In this document: positions 399 to 42,210 of the stretch, piece by piece
Layout of the letters: every line of letters starts with the position of its first letter
Position numbering within the stretch: the first letter of the stretch is position 1
Origin: a virus
DNA: 42,210 nt
Virus record (IMG/VR): IMGVR_UViG_3300022542_000836
Coordinates: 1-42,210 of that record
Strand: one strand, 5' to 3'
Position numbers and translations under genes: made by a program
Notes under the pieces: generated by a model
What the model was told of the DNA's origin: nothing
What the model saw: the letters and a program-made list of their open reading frames with translations, nothing else
Database searches by the model: none

Positions 399-527
399 TC
401 CTCCTTTCCTGTAGCCCTAACAACCGAAAGCAATTAACATAACTATAAATGCTAAAAAAATACCTAAGAGCATTCCTGCCAGAAATCCTTTAATAGTTTC
501 CATAATTCCTCCTTTCCTGTAGCCCTA
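399..527. repeat. Pair of 21-nt direct repeats carrying ribosome-binding sites
   Basis: Bases 399-419 and 507-527 are identical. On the minus strand each copy reads GGGCTACAGGAAAGGAGGA or nearly so, ending in a strong Shine-Dalgarno sequence just before a small gene (273-386 and 417-503). The GGGCTAC part of the 507-527 copy is also complementary to GTAGCCC at 592-586 (minus strand), so it may take part in the RNA structure upstream. Confidence 0.7.
417..503 (-). CDS. 28-residue single-pass membrane peptide
   Basis: A 28-residue frame starting at the ATG 501-503, preceded by AAGGAGGA at good spacing. After METIKG the product is one hydrophobic segment (residues 6-27) ending in Gly-Cys, so it should be a small inner-membrane peptide. 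It lies immediately downstream of the gene-free, probably structured RNA region and upstream of the 37-residue acidic gene. Function unknown; membrane miniproteins of this kind are common in phage early operons. Confidence 0.5.
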   Translation of the reverse strand: METIKGFLAGMLLGIFLAFIVMLIAFGC

Positions 528-956
528 GTGAGGCTGGTCAATTTCACCAAGTTAGCTACTCTCAGTGTTTCTCCCAAACCCCACAGGGCTACCCTGAACC
601 TAATTCTTGCTGTCTACCTTCCACAAAGTCTAAGCTATCAACACAAGGGCTGAACCTCTAGCCTAATAACTCTGGTTAGATTTTCCCTTCACTGCCTTAC
701 CTAGAAGGCTAGTTAGACAATACAAGTTTCGTGCTCAGGCTTCCAAGCTAGTGAGCAGTTACCTCGGTACAAGCCAATAAGCTCAATCTTACCCGACCTT
801 TTGGTCTAAGCTTGGTAGCTTGCTGGAGCTAGGGATTTGGTTCGTCACCCTAGATGAGTCTAATTTATTGAGTTAGCCACTAAACACACTAGGCATTCTC
901 ATTCCTCAAGCTGTGTAACTTTGCGTCTACACCTATTCCGCCACTCCAGCAAGCTA
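519..956 (-). ncRNA. Gene-free 440-nt region, candidate structured noncoding RNA
   Basis: No convincing frame exists between the membrane peptide and the Sak4-like gene, although the rest of the genome is packed tightly. On the minus strand several helices can be drawn. A perfect 13-bp pairing of 944-956 with 816-828 closes a domain. CTAGGG/CCCTAG (829-834 with 848-853) stacks on it. Others are GACC-4nt-GGTC (795-806), TGCTCA/TGAGCA (732-737 with 752-757), CTAGCC/GGCTAG (658-663 with 707-712) and GGGCTAC/GTAGCCC (519-525 with 586-592). Near its 5' end the minus strand reads GGCGGAATAGGTGTAGACGC (942-923), very like the D-arm of bacterial tRNA-Leu. No proper anticodon or T-arm follows, so I do not call a tRNA. 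Large ornate phage RNAs such as GOLLD and ROOL are possible relatives; I cannot assign a family. Confidence 0.45.
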
Positions 957-2892: not shown

Positions 2893-3561
2893 CTAAAATG
2901 GTGGTGGCACTAGATGATAGATACCATTCTCGTCCTTGGAGATGAATCCCTTTTCTTCCATAGAAGGTATGAAAGTATTGCTAAGGATGCTGGTAACCAA
3001 TTCCCCATCAGCTTTTACTGTTGAGTCTTGGAATACAATCTGATTCCAGTCAGCTATGTTCTTACCATCCAGCAACTCCAATGCTCTGGTGGTGGCATCA
3101 GCCTTGGTTGTGGTGCCACCAACGCTGGTTTCTGCTTCTCCCTCTATAGCAATAAGCTCCCAACAATCTCTTGGGGTCTCCTCACCTTTAGCAGCATCCC
3201 ACATCATGTGTCCACCAGTCATTTTCATGTGGAGTTCTTTACCTTCAATGCAAGTCCATACCTCATTTGCTGGTATTAGTTTATCCTCCGAGGCTGCGAA
3301 TACACCCCAAAAGCTCTGCTCCCTGTTGGAGTGCATTATGGAGATTTGAGCTATGGGGAAGGGATATGGCTCCACCGTCTCTATGACTTCCACATCCACA
3401 AAGTTGAAGATTATCTCCGTCCTTGGTGGTGTAAACCTATCCACCAGGTTGGCTGTAATTTTCTCCAATGTCCCTTTGAACTCCCTTAACGGTGTTCTTT
3501 GGAAACCTTTATCCAATCCTCTAATCTTGACTAATGCTAATAACTCCTCTGGTGTTGGCAT
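2893..3561 (-). CDS. Putative single-stranded DNA-binding protein
   Basis: 222 residues. I do not recognise a definite motif. The middle (about residues 45-140) is a run of beta strands rich in aromatics (TEIIFNFVDVEVIE, PIAQISIMHSN, EQSFWGVFAASEDK, EVWTCIEGKELHMKM), compatible with an OB fold. Its place ahead of a Cas4-like nuclease and a Sak4-like recombinase is where phage single-strand binding proteins usually sit. The C-terminal 60 residues look like a small winged-helix or helical domain (ELVTSILSNTFIPSMEEKGFISKDENGIYHL). Second gene of the operon, starting 3 nt before the stop of the ribbon-helix-helix gene. Confidence 0.4.
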   Translation of the reverse strand: MPTPEELLALVKIRGLDKGFQRTPLREFKGTLEKITANLVDRFTPPRTEIIFNFVDVEVIETVEPYPFPIAQISIMHSNREQSFWGVFAASEDKLIPANEVWTCIEGKELHMKMTGGHMMWDAAKGEETPRDCWELIAIEGEAETSVGGTTTKADATTRALELLDGKNIADWNQIVFQDSTVKADGELVTSILSNTFIPSMEEKGFISKDENGIYHLVPPPF

Positions 3562-3732
3562 TCATTCCTCCTTCTTATTTAATACCTCTTTATCCAGTTT
3601 CTCCAGTATAGCTTCATTCATCCATTGATATACATATTTACCCTCCATAGCTGCTCTTGATTTTATCTCCCGCCAAAGCTGGGGTGGCAGGTTAGCAATA
3701 GTTCTGTAATTCTGTTTTGTTTGTTTTCCCAA
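3562..3732 (-). CDS. Ribbon-helix-helix (Arc/CopG-like) regulator, 56 residues
   Basis: First gene of the recombination operon. The frame reads a basic N-terminus (GKQTKQNYRT), a strand (IANLPP), then QLWREIKSRAAMEGKYVYQW and MNEAILEKLDKEV. Short strand, helix, G-K-Y turn, helix is the classic RHH pattern. There is no ATG in frame; the best start is TTG at 3730-3732. A good -10 box (TAAAAT) ends only 9 nt before that TTG, so the message would be leaderless or nearly so. Five copies of the TTGACATAA-type motif lie just upstream. RHH proteins bind tandem short boxes, so autoregulation, and control of the other loci with this motif, is a reasonable inference. Confidence 0.65.
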   Translation of the reverse strand: MGKQTKQNYRTIANLPPQLWREIKSRAAMEGKYVYQWMNEAILEKLDKEVLNKKEE

Positions 3733-3741
3733 CTTATAAAC

Positions 3742-3771
3742 ATTTTATCACCTATCGGCTGGCTTTGTCAA
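3742..3771 (-). promoter_or_regulatory. Sigma-70-type promoter of the recombination operon
   Basis: Minus strand: -35 TTGACA at 3771-3766, 18-bp spacer, -10 TAAAAT at 3747-3742. Expected transcription start is within about two bases of the TTG start codon of the RHH gene. The motif array 3763-3830 overlaps the -35 and extends upstream. Confidence 0.7.
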
Positions 3772-3830
3772 GTCTTGGTGTTATGTCAAGTAACTTTATG
3801 TAAAGTTGTTATGTCAAATCATTATGTCAA
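3763..3830 (-). repeat. Operator-like array, five copies of TTGACATAA-type motif
   Basis: On the plus strand TTATGTCAA or a close variant starts at 3763 (CTTTGTCAA), 3781, 3796 (TTATGTAAA), 3809 and 3822, spacings 18, 15, 13 and 13. All copies have the same orientation, reading TTGACATAA in the direction of leftward transcription. The downstream-most copy contains the -35 box of the RHH promoter. The same motif occurs at 11.4-11.5, 12.3, 14.3 and 28.0 kb. Confidence 0.75.
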
Positions 3831-11478: not shown

Positions 11479-11497
11479 TAGCACAAATGTTCTGATA

Positions 11498-11545
11498 TTA
11501 TGTAAAGTCCTTATGTAAAGCTATTATGTCAACCCGTTATGTCAA
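11498..11545 (-). repeat. Four motif copies at exact 13-bp period (operator or iteron array)
   Basis: On the plus strand: TTATGTAAA at 11498-11506 and 11511-11519, TTATGTCAA at 11524-11532 and 11537-11545. Start-to-start spacing is 13, 13 and 13. The array lies between the leftward promoter (11449-11478) and the rightward promoter (11601-11629), in an unusually long gene-free stretch for this genome. It could be an operator for both promoters or the iterons of a replication origin. Confidence 0.75.
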
Positions 11546-25500: not shown

Positions 25501-27983
25501 GGTTGTTTGACATCCTAACAACCAAGCGGGAATATGCTGCTGAGTTCCGAGCACAAAATATGGCTACCCGTCATGAGATATTTGCTGGAGCTACCGCAGC
25601 CGATATGAAAAGTAGGACTTTTTGGGATGACTTTTACCTCCGTATGGATAGCGAATATATAACTTTTGATAGAAGGATAGCAGACCTTGATGGTATGTTG
25701 GTTCAGGTAGCTGAAGGTATGGATATATCTGCTGGTATTAAACCTTTCCAAAGACCAGCTATTAAAGCGATGGATAGACCTTTAGCTCCTCAGGATGTGG
25801 CTAACCTTCTTGGTTGCCGAGGTGATGACATCTCTAGGTCTTTGTTGGATGTCCTTACAATCCAAAACGATAGGGAGATGTTTATCACCTATGTCCTGGC
25901 AAAAACCAGACCTGGTGATGCAGGTTTTACCAAAGAATCTGTAGGAGCGGTTTATGACCAGATAGTCTATTCCTTACAAACAGACCCTAGAACCATGTCC
26001 TGGATTACCTCCAAGCAAATGGAATTGGAAGCTGTCAGAAGGGACTTACACTATCTACATAACTCCAAGATGTTCCCTAAGGAGGAGAAGATAATTATAG
26101 ATAGGTTCTTGGATGAAACTGCCGATGCTATGGATGACCTAATGTTCACCACTAAGCCAAGTAGAAAGGGAGTACCTCCAACCAAGGCGATAAAATCCGA
26201 GTTTGCTGATTTTGATTCCCTCCGTCAATCCGCTATGGATGAAGCTCACAAATGGTATTATAAGGAATATCCTGATTACACCAACGCCAATGCTTTTGAT
26301 GCTATGATGAAAACCATTTATCCTTATTGGACTTATGAATCCCAGAGATGGTTTTGGCTTCCTCGTAGCTTTATTAGGCATCCTGGAACCTTCACCGCAT
26401 TTGAAAGGTGGCAGAATAACACCGACTATGGTTATGTCCATATACCAGGGACTTCCGTGGACATTAACCCATTTAGAGGGACTATCTATGGTACTTTAAC
26501 AACCAGACTTACCAGAAGGGATTTCCCTGAGTATTATGATGCTTTACCATTTGCTGGCAACTTTGTGGAGTTTATGGATTTCCTCTCCCGATGGGGTTTT
26601 TATCCAGGTGCTCATATTGGTATCCCTCTAGCTATGTTTGGTGGCTTAGAGCAACAGATGGGTGAGACCATACCAGCGATATGGAAAACTCCTCTAAATG
26701 CTGCTATAGGTTTATTCCCTGACAATACATTTGTGAAAGCGGTTAGTGAAACTATATTTCCAGATAGGTTCAGAGATTACCTGACTATCCTTATGGTCAA
26801 CAAGCGTGGTTATGATGGAACCCATATCTGGACTAAGATGGAGGAACACCTAGAGCTAACTGAGGAAGAACAAGCTGTTTGGACTGATGCTAGGAGTGAG
26901 GCAGCATTACATGGTATGCTTTTTGAGCAGTTTGGTTTGTTCAGACTTAGGAGTGATGAGCAATATCAGGTGTATGAGGATTCTGCCAAAGCTATAGAGG
27001 AAATGACGGGGTTTACTCCTGACCAACAAAAGTGGCTTAGGATGCATGGTTATAAGATATGGGATTTGGTAGGTGGTATGTCCCCAACTCAGCAAGCTAT
27101 TCTCCAAGAACTAGATGCCTACAGGTGGATGGGTTCTGTTAGACCCTTGCTGCCTGGCAGACAGCAGGAAATCCTGAATAGGCTGGAATTGGATTGGGAT
27201 GATGTTAGGAGATATACCGAAAACCAGCAACAGGAGAAACTCCAAATACAGCAGGATTTCCTTATGGGTATAATCGGTCCTAGAGACTACAACGATAAGC
27301 TAATTGACCTCTATGATGACCAAAGCAACTATATAGACCAAAGGATGGAGGAGAATCCTTTAATGACTTTGGAGGGTAGAACCGATTACTATAAGGAATT
27401 TAATATACCTATGCCAGTCCTACATCCTATGAGGGAACTACTCAACCTCTACTTTGATATAGAGCTAAAGGATAAGATAGATGAGGAAACTGGTGAAAAG
27501 GTAAAGGACTGGGATACCTTTTGGGCGCAAAGGGAAGCTATAGAAGGTGCCATTCCACCCCACCTAAAGCAAGAGTGGGATGACTATATTTCAAGGAATT
27601 CTACCAGGGTGGAACTAATAAGACGAAAGGTGTATAAGGAATACTTCAGGGTATATAATAAAATCTGGGAGTCTGCTTTAGAGAGATACCCAGAGGAGGA
27701 GCAAAAGCTGATTAAGGAATTCCTCTACCTTGAACGCATGGATATAGACTTTGCTCGGCAGGATGAAATCAAGGCTATGGTTAGTGTAAAGACAGGTAAT
27801 ATGCTAATATCTAGTTTTCGCTCTGATGTATCCAATGCTAGATTAGCACTTAGGTATGCTAATCCTGCCTTGGATGCCTGGTTGAGGTTCTGGGGTAGGG
27901 TTGAGAGTTTCCAAACTCCTGAAGCTGGGGTTATCTTTGTGCAGATTTGCAAGGATGTTGGTAAGAAATATACTTTATCATAA
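22515..27983 (+). CDS. Giant virion protein, probable internal/ejection protein (1822 residues)
   Basis: By far the largest gene (5.5 kb), between portal and scaffold. Residues 1-300 are helical. About residues 290-410 contain Trp-rich segments (TFWNIVKEVVVQPGLAAMEL, LGNAWQNWEFNWFVKYMLME) and hydrophobic stretches near PLTYVGWGIAARITKPIPYV. The long centre is helical with repeated R/K-E pairs. Near residue 1270 there is YPYWTYESQRWFWLPRSFIR, reminiscent of large polyvalent or ejected proteins, and later PFAGNFVEFMDFLSRWGFYP. No transglycosylase, protease or polymerase motif was found. Position and size suggest a head-internal protein injected with the DNA. A tape measure is unlikely in this position. 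Confidence 0.6.
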   Translation: MPDGFPEELAELSPQMKEITSWFLSFSQRIAKASPMLRTKLVEWESKRMRYWSSMGETQRLIEEYSEHYEAYASMGGGGIFIAKLLKIPSLPPETRVKAAQIAFVGTAGEELGRLKNKMGVAIDDLEKQDFYHKLYGDVPTVISSGRATSVDEVLSLLPVPKTITPAELSSIRNTIAGMFEAFSAEPLEEIAREVELPELIAPVGIAPKPIGISVITTEEILKAITAPRIPPQVMTDEEWYELLKMEGYSDADLEEVAYTQLLADDLIASWIEDANRLEAFRGGVADMPDYTFWNIVKEVVVQPGLAAMELAGLYFEHVSQPIAGFVWKTFIPDIEVEYQRLRKTESTWEALGNAWQNWEFNWFVKYMLMEGVVDPLTYVGWGIAARITKPIPYVGRFVGAAERGIQSLFEVPFDLIKAGWMKIPKTASLRASAAQRQAGRLVDKAMTKYWDKPLHSINMKEFGEGAEVFIKFALDHPQSEEWMALAGRELLKHAPVDEALIRSWSKRLGTTLTPEDITRVTIENVENLFEDYFMKGIITQKEAAGRLLRILGAANPDDDALKLAQRLLQERVNVISRGAMVFASAKSSFKAMQVLMKRNFKIQMQIEESAAYLVRKEVGGYTVLLHNVDVRLQGIWRNQIDRMVVRPFAEAYLTFGMYGPMNVLEDYIRSSLGGVRPRRMTTENFESLAVGLAYDPNIKRPGISEMIGYLAREGAEENWNNWILQLAMLGRKGWADKLYTYAVRIPGAYGMDVRRNFLSRRYLQILRETGGDTYEALMRVGPKTPVLADKSIVRDLETLVHHTKSTGNPNSVRNVKDQFTRKKIVGNEVNTILKQHPELPNTVRDFVRGEFKAGTLFSEGGVSIDRTISESGTMLLDDFIRSPEIATRQMKSLADILVELEVKNPQDMAWCLKQLQVMSNVYGATPRQVIAQATVRSRGLSLAERRVRFDADFDRLYLFLDSAGADIDRVITKLKTLMKEPRVAISDDYVTKADRLFDILTTKREYAAEFRAQNMATRHEIFAGATAADMKSRTFWDDFYLRMDSEYITFDRRIADLDGMLVQVAEGMDISAGIKPFQRPAIKAMDRPLAPQDVANLLGCRGDDISRSLLDVLTIQNDREMFITYVLAKTRPGDAGFTKESVGAVYDQIVYSLQTDPRTMSWITSKQMELEAVRRDLHYLHNSKMFPKEEKIIIDRFLDETADAMDDLMFTTKPSRKGVPPTKAIKSEFADFDSLRQSAMDEAHKWYYKEYPDYTNANAFDAMMKTIYPYWTYESQRWFWLPRSFIRHPGTFTAFERWQNNTDYGYVHIPGTSVDINPFRGTIYGTLTTRLTRRDFPEYYDALPFAGNFVEFMDFLSRWGFYPGAHIGIPLAMFGGLEQQMGETIPAIWKTPLNAAIGLFPDNTFVKAVSETIFPDRFRDYLTILMVNKRGYDGTHIWTKMEEHLELTEEEQAVWTDARSEAALHGMLFEQFGLFRLRSDEQYQVYEDSAKAIEEMTGFTPDQQKWLRMHGYKIWDLVGGMSPTQQAILQELDAYRWMGSVRPLLPGRQQEILNRLELDWDDVRRYTENQQQEKLQIQQDFLMGIIGPRDYNDKLIDLYDDQSNYIDQRMEENPLMTLEGRTDYYKEFNIPMPVLHPMRELLNLYFDIELKDKIDEETGEKVKDWDTFWAQREAIEGAIPPHLKQEWDDYISRNSTRVELIRRKVYKEYFRVYNKIWESALERYPEEEQKLIKEFLYLERMDIDFARQDEIKAMVSVKTGNMLISSFRSDVSNARLALRYANPALDAWLRFWGRVESFQTPEAGVIFVQICKDVGKKYTLS

Positions 27984-28017
27984 TTAACATTATCATAATA
28001 GTATAATAAAGTATATT
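27967..28017. other. 12-bp AT-rich inverted repeat over the giant gene stop
   Basis: AATATACTTTAT (27967-27978) and ATAAAGTATATT (28006-28017) are perfect complements separated by 27 nt. The left arm includes the last codons of the giant gene. Only a short T-run (TTTT) follows, so it would be a weak or attenuating terminator, reducing read-through into the capsid promoter region. Binding site for a dimeric protein is the alternative. Confidence 0.5.
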
Positions 28018-28025
28018 GGTTTTGC

Positions 28026-28067
28026 TTGACATAATACTTGACAGATTATGTAAAGTTGTGATATAAT
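28026..28067 (+). promoter_or_regulatory. Capsid-operon promoter with motif copies
   Basis: -35 TTGACA at 28038-28043, 18-bp spacer, -10 TATAAT at 28062-28067 (both perfect), then CTTAGGAGG and the scaffold ATG at 28087. TTGACATAA lies at 28026-28034 upstream of the -35, and TTATGTAAA at 28046-28054 lies inside the spacer in the opposite orientation. A second promoter for scaffold and capsid fits their need for high expression. Confidence 0.8.
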
Positions 28068-41586: not shown

Positions 41587-42210
41587 TATACCCTCCTTCC
41601 TACAGCTGTAAGCAGTTTCCTAGCTCTATTGATACCAAACTGCTTCTTCCCCACCATAGTTTCTGCTAAACCTTCAAGCTCCTGACTTAACACATAATAA
41701 GCAGTTCCATACTTTTCAATTAAAGTTAGAGCTATTTCCTCACCAACTCCACCACCAGTTACACCCATTAAAGTTTCCACATGTGGATTATGTGGCTTAG
41801 GATAAACCTTCTGCTTAATGTATCTCTTGAAGGTGGTATGCTCCTCCTTCTGGGAGTTATTGTATAAAGCTACTAGGGTGGTAGCGGTAGCTACATAATC
41901 AATGGTATTTACAATCGTAATCCCAGCTTTGTCTAGTTGGGAGAACCATGCTTGCACTCCTGCATAGCTGATATTATATTTGTGTCCTGGCACCAACAGC
42001 TTACCATCCTTGCTTTTCCTAAATGACCGACAAGCTGTTTTTGTTCCTGCTATAGGTTCAAATGTTCCCTCATAAAGTAACAAGGTCTCCTCAGCATTAA
42101 CAATCTCCTTCCTTAGTTGTAATTCCACACCATCCATATCACCCAGTATCTCGTCTATTTGCTTCCTTTCTACCTGTATGGTATGATTATCCACAGCATG
42201 CCAAAGGTAA
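41586..42210 (-). CDS. ERCC4-domain nuclease, main part (continues at 239-1)
   Basis: C-terminal 208 codons of the protein whose start lies at 239 on the other side of the join. After the ERK motif (VERKQIDEIL at the window end) come NISYAGVQAWFSQLDKAGIT and IVNTIDYVATATTLVALYNN, the usual end of the nuclease fold. The helix-hairpin-helix tail follows: LMGVTGGGVGEEIALTLIEK, YGTAYYVLSQELEGLAETMV, GKKQFGINRARKLLTAVGRR. The catalytic plus HhH2 layout is that of MUS81/XPF/Hef enzymes, without a helicase domain. In the circle it is 240 residues and overlaps the next gene by one base. Confidence 0.8.
   Translation of the reverse strand, partial: YLWHAVDNHTIQVERKQIDEILGDMDGVELQLRKEIVNAEETLLLYEGTFEPIAGTKTACRSFRKSKDGKLLVPGHKYNISYAGVQAWFSQLDKAGITIVNTIDYVATATTLVALYNNSQKEEHTTFKRYIKQKVYPKPHNPHVETLMGVTGGGVGEEIALTLIEKYGTAYYVLSQELEGLAETMVGKKQFGINRARKLLTAVGRRV
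42070..42210. repeat. Terminal direct repeat, right copy (circular overlap)
   Basis: Identical to bases 1-141. Removing one copy gives the closed genome. Confidence 0.95.

Follow-up and report, generated by a model that had tools for sequence, protein, structure and literature searches.

The gene-free region and its neighbours

The stretch of DNA analysed here, referred to as the window, is the whole of a 42,210-nucleotide virus record from IMG/VR (IMGVR_UViG_3300022542_000836). It represents the entire genome of a phage, either circular or terminally redundant, with an exact direct terminal repeat of 141 bp (positions 1-141 and 42070-42210) and a G+C content of about 43%. The region of interest runs from 956 to 519 on the minus strand, the strand of its neighbour genes (Table 1). 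Upstream lies a gene for a Sak4-like single-stranded DNA annealing ATPase, whose stop codon is 5 nt ahead of the closing stem described below; downstream, a small open reading frame for a membrane protein (503-418, minus strand) begins after the region.

An earlier note, made from the sequence alone, had described this region as gene-free and extensively base paired, and both descriptions hold. The minus-strand frames are open for at most 31 codons and contain 10-15 stops each, while the longest plus-strand frame reaches 46 codons; there is no coding frame. The 452-nt minus strand folds at -154.9 kcal/mol, compared with -132.9 +/- 6.3 for shuffled sequences (z -3.5), none of 100 shuffles being as good, and the plus strand of the gene-free region folds at z -2.4. 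Both halves of the minus strand are structured when taken alone (957-815, z -3.85; 814-519, z -2.97).

A second IMG/VR contig carries an identical copy of the region, which leaves no variation to work with for the window copy. Protein searches for relatives of the window phage returned one identical contig and no other phage, and BLAST of the 440 nt against annotated phages and plasmids gave no significant match. An Rfam covariance search of the region, which the earlier note had proposed, matched no family at gathering or permissive thresholds.

Elsewhere in the window, clusters of a 9-10 bp word, TTATGTMAA(G), are found in intergenic gaps at 3780-3830, 11485-11545 and 27980-28065. The words are spaced about 10-20 nt apart, beside divergent gene blocks, and resemble phage repressor operators.

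Table 1. Features at and around the gene-free region of the window
Feature	Position	Strand	Basis
Sak4-like ssDNA annealing ATPase gene, upstream neighbour	962-1756	minus	phrog_124, E 4e-7; Pfam AAA_24, E 5e-6, slightly below gathering score
tRNA-Leu-like element with 13-bp closing stem (core 950-822)	816-956	minus	Covariance model R1, 49.1 bits, E 2.3e-11
Acceptor extension (6 bp), 5' strand TAGCTT	951-956	minus	Sequence; pairs with AAGCTA 821-816
Acceptor-like stem, 5' strand GCTGGAG	944-950	minus	Pairs with 828-822, 7/7; homologous to covarying helix of 60 members
D-arm GCGGAATAGGTGTAGACGC, stem GCG 941-939 / CGC 925-923	923-941	minus	AGTGGCGGAATAGGTGTAGACGC identical in L006 and L008
Insert replacing anticodon and variable arms, 69 nt	854-922	minus	Sequence-based prediction
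T-arm, 6-bp stem CTAGGG 853-848 / CCCTAG 834-829, 13-nt loop TGACGAACCAAAT	829-853	minus	Covariance model alignment
Acceptor-like stem, 3' strand CTCCAGC	822-828	minus	Pairs with 950-944, 7/7; homologous to covarying helix of 60 members
Acceptor extension (6 bp), 3' strand AAGCTA	816-821	minus	Sequence; pairs with TAGCTT 951-956
Structured non-coding tail, about 300 nt, predicted to form three helical domains	519-814	minus	z -2.97
21-bp repeat TAGGGCTACAGGAAAGGAGGA with Shine-Dalgarno	507-527	minus	Exact copy at 419-399, before next ORF

A tRNA-Leu-like element in the window

The half of the region nearest the Sak4-like gene is closed by the perfect 13-bp stem that had been claimed for it, in which TAGCTTGCTGGAG (956-944) pairs with CTCCAGCAAGCTA (828-816). 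Seven of these pairs form the acceptor-like stem GCTGGAG/CTCCAGC, also correctly recognised at the time, and six extend it. An acceptor extension of at least 6 bp occurs in only two of 156 members of the RNA class described below, making the 13-bp stem of the window exceptional. The likeness to a tRNA-Leu D-arm is real as well, and belongs to a member of this class rather than being a stray match. The D-loop is 2 nt longer than the class consensus, a feature shared only with two other phages, L006 and L008.

Anticodon and T-arms had been reported as missing. A canonical anticodon arm is indeed absent from the 69-nt insert, and ARAGORN finds no tRNA gene; a T-arm, however, is present, and sits directly against the 3' strand of the acceptor. 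Its loop, UG-ACGAAC-CAAAU, has 13 nt in place of the 7-nt UGCAAAU (TGCAAAT) usual in the class. A similar long loop is carried on the same stem in L254 (CTAGGG-TGACAGAAATTCAAAT-CCCTAG), which indicates that the T-loop of the window marks a variant and not a non-member.

Within the insert, a variable-arm-like stem (GTTTAGT 885-879/ATTAGAC 864-858) and a kissing interaction (TTGAG 909-905/CTCAA 872-868) are predicted on the minus strand, together with a possible stem of ACAC (916-913) and GTGT (889-886). The arrangement of a stem abutting AU with a kissing interaction is equalled by 25 of 300 shuffled sequences and is thus a prediction only; its topology is the same as that proven by covariation in the Bacillaceae subgroup A5.

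A covariance model of the class, R1, which was trained without the window, finds its best match in the window at 950-822 on the minus strand, the next best place scoring 11.7 bits, and the result is the same with filters off. Class members score 53-84 bits with this model and true phage tRNA-Leu genes (in L043 and L008) 24-36 bits, with the window at 49.1. These scores establish common descent with tRNA-Leu and place the window in the class. The RNA encoded at 950-822 is a divergent representative of this class, which is unannotated, borne by phages and descended from tRNA-Leu.

Members of the class

The 19-base D-arm word of the window is found in L006 and L008, unrelated phages with the same 23 nt (AGTGGCGGAATAGGTGTAGACGC). 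In both, these lie within tRNA arrays and are accompanied by flanking 7-bp acceptor stems and a T-arm loop of TGCAAAT; ARAGORN calls neither element. A relaxed D-arm pattern gave 12 matches, which, beyond the window, L006 and L008, are without tRNA-like context and mostly look coding, and were rejected. The search pattern combined features of L006 and L008 with a distance from D-arm to T-arm that is impossible for an ordinary tRNA-Leu. It matched at least 120 times in viral contigs and in 93 stretches of named bacterial and archaeal genomes, and an acceptor-stem filter left at least 196 different sequences, drawn from prophages, cultured phages and the phages of IMG/VR.

Members are almost all phages or prophages, mostly of Bacillota. 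Lactobacillaceae, Paenibacillus, Bacillaceae and Clostridia make up most of the hosts. Record titles from other phyla appear here and there, and some of these are probably chance matches or tRNA-Leu (L194 scores 19.7 bits and L143 9.8). A match in a Methylobacillus genome proved to be a true tRNA-Leu and was rejected, so that a few of the 93 genome matches are not members. The element is accessory and prophage-borne, being present in 12 of 101 Lactobacillaceae genomes, and a search of E. coli genomes for a Lactobacillus-type member gave no match. Cultured carriers are the phages Lb338-1, JNU_P9 and Sha1. ARAGORN detects the element in one of 185 loci.

Fold and covariation

Conserved across the class are an acceptor stem of 7 bp, the D-arm of tRNA-Leu (GTGGCGGAATAGGTAGACGC), U48 and a T-arm of 6 bp whose loop is UGCAAAU. 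When 60 diverse members are aligned, 98.3% of the 960 base-pair cells in the acceptor, D and T stems are standard pairs, compared with 72% for shuffled sequences and no more than 43% when the pairing partners are shifted. Cells changed on both sides number 266 where 71 are expected, the covariation score is 0.718 against 0.181 for shuffled sequences, and all four Watson-Crick pair types occur at five of the seven acceptor positions. Covariation in homologues had been set beforehand as the test on which a structured RNA might founder; it turns out to be very strong.

The search pattern itself demanded parts of the D-arm and T-loop. Positions outside the pattern are also near-invariant (the C of GTGGC, TAGGT and U48), and with the T-loop left free except for CRAATCC, so that TG was not required, TGCAAAT is found in 149 of 156 members. 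We take UGCAAAU to fit the UGNRA form of the T-loop motif, in which case the elbow could form without pseudouridine 55. As the acceptor stem, D-arm, A15-U48 positions and T-arm are all kept, so presumably is the tRNA elbow. CCA is encoded in only one of 156 members. As discriminator base, A (54%), T (28%) and C (12%) all occur, a mixture that makes leucylation unlikely as a conserved property.

A rapidly evolving insert of 44-72 nt stands between the D-arm and T-arm in place of an anticodon arm and a variable arm, and it is often pseudoknotted or contains a kissing loop. In 62% of members and 13% of shuffles there is a helix with its 3' strand stopping precisely at the 'AU' that precedes the T-stem; at the two offsets nearer the T-stem the figure is 14-16%. 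The helix corresponds to a long variable arm. Pairing of the 5' part of the insert with the variable-arm loop is enriched at the strictest cut (22% versus 8%). In a Bacillaceae/Paenibacillaceae subgroup of seven members, the variable-arm loop makes a kissing contact with the 17-nt loop of an anticodon-like stem. Covariation proves this loop-loop pairing, one position showing as many as five pair types. A universal anticodon-like helix was considered and is unsupported class-wide, being found only in subgroups. In the member L116 (4110-4224), the insert has GGCTATC at its 5' end and GCTATC at its 3' end, both able to pair with a central GATAGC, giving two mutually exclusive folds and a possible switch.

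Genomic context

Many copies lie between a late activator gene (ArpU/RinA) and HNH/terminase genes, phage Sha1 being a cultured example, and this location suggests lytic expression. When the closest upstream protein is taken for each of 92 members, late transcription activators (phrog_248, phrog_36) account for at least 32 of them, and 13 further rows match phrog_2198, overlapping with the activator matches. On the downstream side, HNH endonucleases and small terminase subunits are the commonest first and second neighbours, and HNH, TerS and TerL genes adjoin the element in many prophages. Other positions also exist, ahead of a scaffold-like gene in L254 and after Sak4 in the window. No one partner protein accompanies the element at every locus.

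Intrinsic terminators are found within 250 nt downstream in 38 of 165 loci, compared with 17 in the antisense direction and 14 of 169 upstream. In 38 of 185 loci there are tRNA genes no more than 1 kb away, all on the same strand, against 20 for random positions in the same loci. The L008 record (G003, 150578 bases) is a tRNA-rich large phage with at least five different copies of the element, at 109138, 127922, 131491, 132444 and 141220, and a weak one at 129354.

Further tRNA-like hairpins, missed by the Rfam tRNA model, occur a few hundred nucleotides from the element in Lactobacillaceae prophages, at 272-331 of L171 (GGGGGTTCGATTCCCCC) and as a short tRNA-like fold at 763-747 (minus) of L142. 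In Lactobacillus phage Lb338-1 (L137), the element is followed by about 700 nt without an annotated gene (3100-3830); this stretch holds an odd ARAGORN tRNA-??? at 3357-3429 and may contain another structured RNA.

The tail and the 21-bp repeat

The remainder of the window region, the tail from 814 to 519, ends at the Shine-Dalgarno sequence of the next small ORF. No relatives of it were found in any sequences searched, a 19-base word search returning the identical contig only. The tail alone could be a separate 'ornate' element. The two copies of the 21-bp repeat (399-419 and 507-527, minus strand) carry the Shine-Dalgarno sequences of two consecutive tiny ORFs. In both, the GGGCTAC half is complementary to 585-592, so that a single upstream strand could serve as partner for both ribosome binding sites.

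Proposed function and alternative explanations

The reading preferred here, held tentatively and with a little less than even confidence, is that processing of the RNA yields a tRNA mimic without an anticodon, which acts in trans on a host factor that handles or attacks tRNA. It would be transcribed together with neighbouring phage genes. From typical members, RNase P, RNase Z and CCA addition would release a stable mimic unable to decode, RNase Z and CCA addition being invoked because CCA is not encoded. The mimic might then occupy a host factor that recognises tRNA by its elbow and acceptor and not by its anticodon, such as LeuRS, EF-Tu, RNase P or the ribosome; alternatively, its target may be a tRNA-directed defence or toxin protein. 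The insert would vary to match the host or a rival.

In the window phage, the 13-bp closing stem and 300-nt structured tail suggest that the element probably persists as one domain within a longer RNA. This copy could expose a free tRNA-like 3' end only if the closing stem opened, and it would probably work by binding and not by being charged. The broader proposal is of widespread tRNA-Leu mimics of double-stranded DNA phages, in which the anticodon arm has given way to a hypervariable kissing-loop insert, which are expressed lytically so as to sequester or inhibit either a host factor that handles tRNA or a defence directed at tRNA, and one of which is fused to a large structured RNA in the window phage. 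We regard this as about evenly balanced between right and wrong.

The downstream terminators, same-strand tRNA neighbours, several copies per tRNA-rich genome and a 7-bp acceptor as in tRNA count in favour of an RNA gene. A cis role would explain the conserved site ahead of the terminase genes equally well. The element might be a processing mark cut by RNase P or RNase Z, or an antitermination or attenuation device where the late packaging operon begins, with any free RNA irrelevant. The fixed site between late activator and HNH/terminase genes and the terminators often just downstream speak for this, as does the window copy, which lies in an operon, 5 nt past a stop codon, and ends at a Shine-Dalgarno sequence. 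However, a cut would not require a conserved D-arm and T-loop with an elaborate variable insert, and the copies in L254 and the window occupy other positions. The five or more different copies in a tRNA-rich region of one 150-kb phage fit poorly there with a strictly cis or packaging role. A cis element is rather doubtful as an explanation of the class. A packaging or assembly RNA working with terminase, in a role like that of phi29 pRNA, or a DNA site (cos or att) that merely looks like RNA, is improbable: the adjoining HNH, TerS and TerL genes of many prophages would suit it, but copies also lie far from packaging genes, with several per genome in the 150-kb phage, and the RNA fold shows Watson-Crick covariation with loop-loop contacts.

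The RNA might instead serve as a decoy, or as bait for a sensor, against host defences directed at tRNA (anticodon nucleases, tRNA-modifying toxins), offering a tRNA-Leu elbow without a cleavable anticodon loop. This would account for the accessory, prophage-borne distribution (the 12 of 101 Lactobacillaceae genomes), the frozen tRNA-Leu scaffold bearing a fast-evolving insert, and the phage tRNA genes as neighbours. Nevertheless, no defence system was found linked, the scaffolds seen are only of the tRNA-Leu type, and a late-operon position is atypical of early counter-defence genes, so we judge it unlikely. Clear descent from tRNA-Leu, with tRNA-Leu genes cross-matching the model at 24-36 bits, might also be expected of a decaying pseudogene or an intron-interrupted tRNA-Leu. 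Yet the stems covary under strong constraint across 60 diverse members, the T-loop and D-arm are near-invariant, the anticodon stem-loop is missing and Rfam group I and II intron models are unmatched; such an origin is scarcely credible.

The class suggests that many phages make a tRNA mimic unable to decode. It is carried by hundreds of phages and prophages, many of them of culturable Lactobacillaceae, Paenibacillus and Bacillus hosts, and has been missed by tRNA finders, Rfam and the deposited annotations examined. A frozen tRNA elbow joined to a hypervariable insert marks an RNA that faces a conserved host machine on one side and something that evolves quickly on the other. As the element is carried by cultured phages (Lb338-1, JNU_P9 and Sha1), its expression, processing, charging and partner are directly testable.

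Comparison with known systems

The element matches no ROOL, GOLLD, tmRNA or intron family in Rfam 15 at gathering or permissive thresholds, and a group I intron in tRNA-Leu was rejected on these grounds. It is unannotated in the deposited records of the phages examined, and a full-text search of the open literature, with bioRxiv covered through its PMC copies, found no such class described. As it is also nearly always missed by ARAGORN and fails the tests for tRNA, tmRNA, ROOL and GOLLD, it is rated a new class. The earlier note had offered a new class of structured RNA as its second option, and this is probably correct: the RNA is non-coding and related to tRNA-Leu without being a tRNA. tRNA mimicry is generally well known, and other literature could describe the class.

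The other option had been an RNA of the GOLLD/ROOL kind. GOLLD and ROOL are structured RNAs of phages and prophages, found near tRNA genes and of unknown function (PMC12286853). The class is likewise structured, phage- or prophage-borne and near tRNA genes, but differs in fold and is far smaller (about 100-130 nt), and the lack of even a permissive Rfam match speaks against this assignment. The cabRNA of staphylococcal phages is a structured RNA from the terminase region; it was rejected as an identity, as it lies inside the terS-terL coding sequence and is without conserved sequence (PMC10686824).

With tmRNA (RF00023 and relatives) the class shares a tRNA-like end domain without an anticodon, pseudoknots and possible occurrence in phages, and there is one tmRNA match in L006. 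However, the element is about 110 nt long compared with about 300-400 nt, its D-stem is intact, a tag reading frame is not seen and tmRNA covariance models do not match it.

A close likeness to tRNA-Leu (RF00005) is seen in the 7-bp acceptor, the D-arm GTGGCGGAATAGGTAGACGC, A14/A15, G18 G19, U48, the T-arm and a class II-like long variable arm, and in the cross-matching of R1 to real phage tRNA-Leu genes. In contrast to tRNA-Leu, the class has no anticodon stem-loop, a 44-72 nt insert, a 6-bp T-stem and the T-loop UGCAAAU rather than UUCRANY, and it is reported neither by the Rfam tRNA model at gathering score nor by ARAGORN. The tRNA-like structures of RNA viruses also mimic tRNA with the help of pseudoknots. 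Whereas those structures are the 3' ends of RNA genomes, the members of this class are internal genes of double-stranded DNA phages, in which both the D-arm and the T-arm are conserved.
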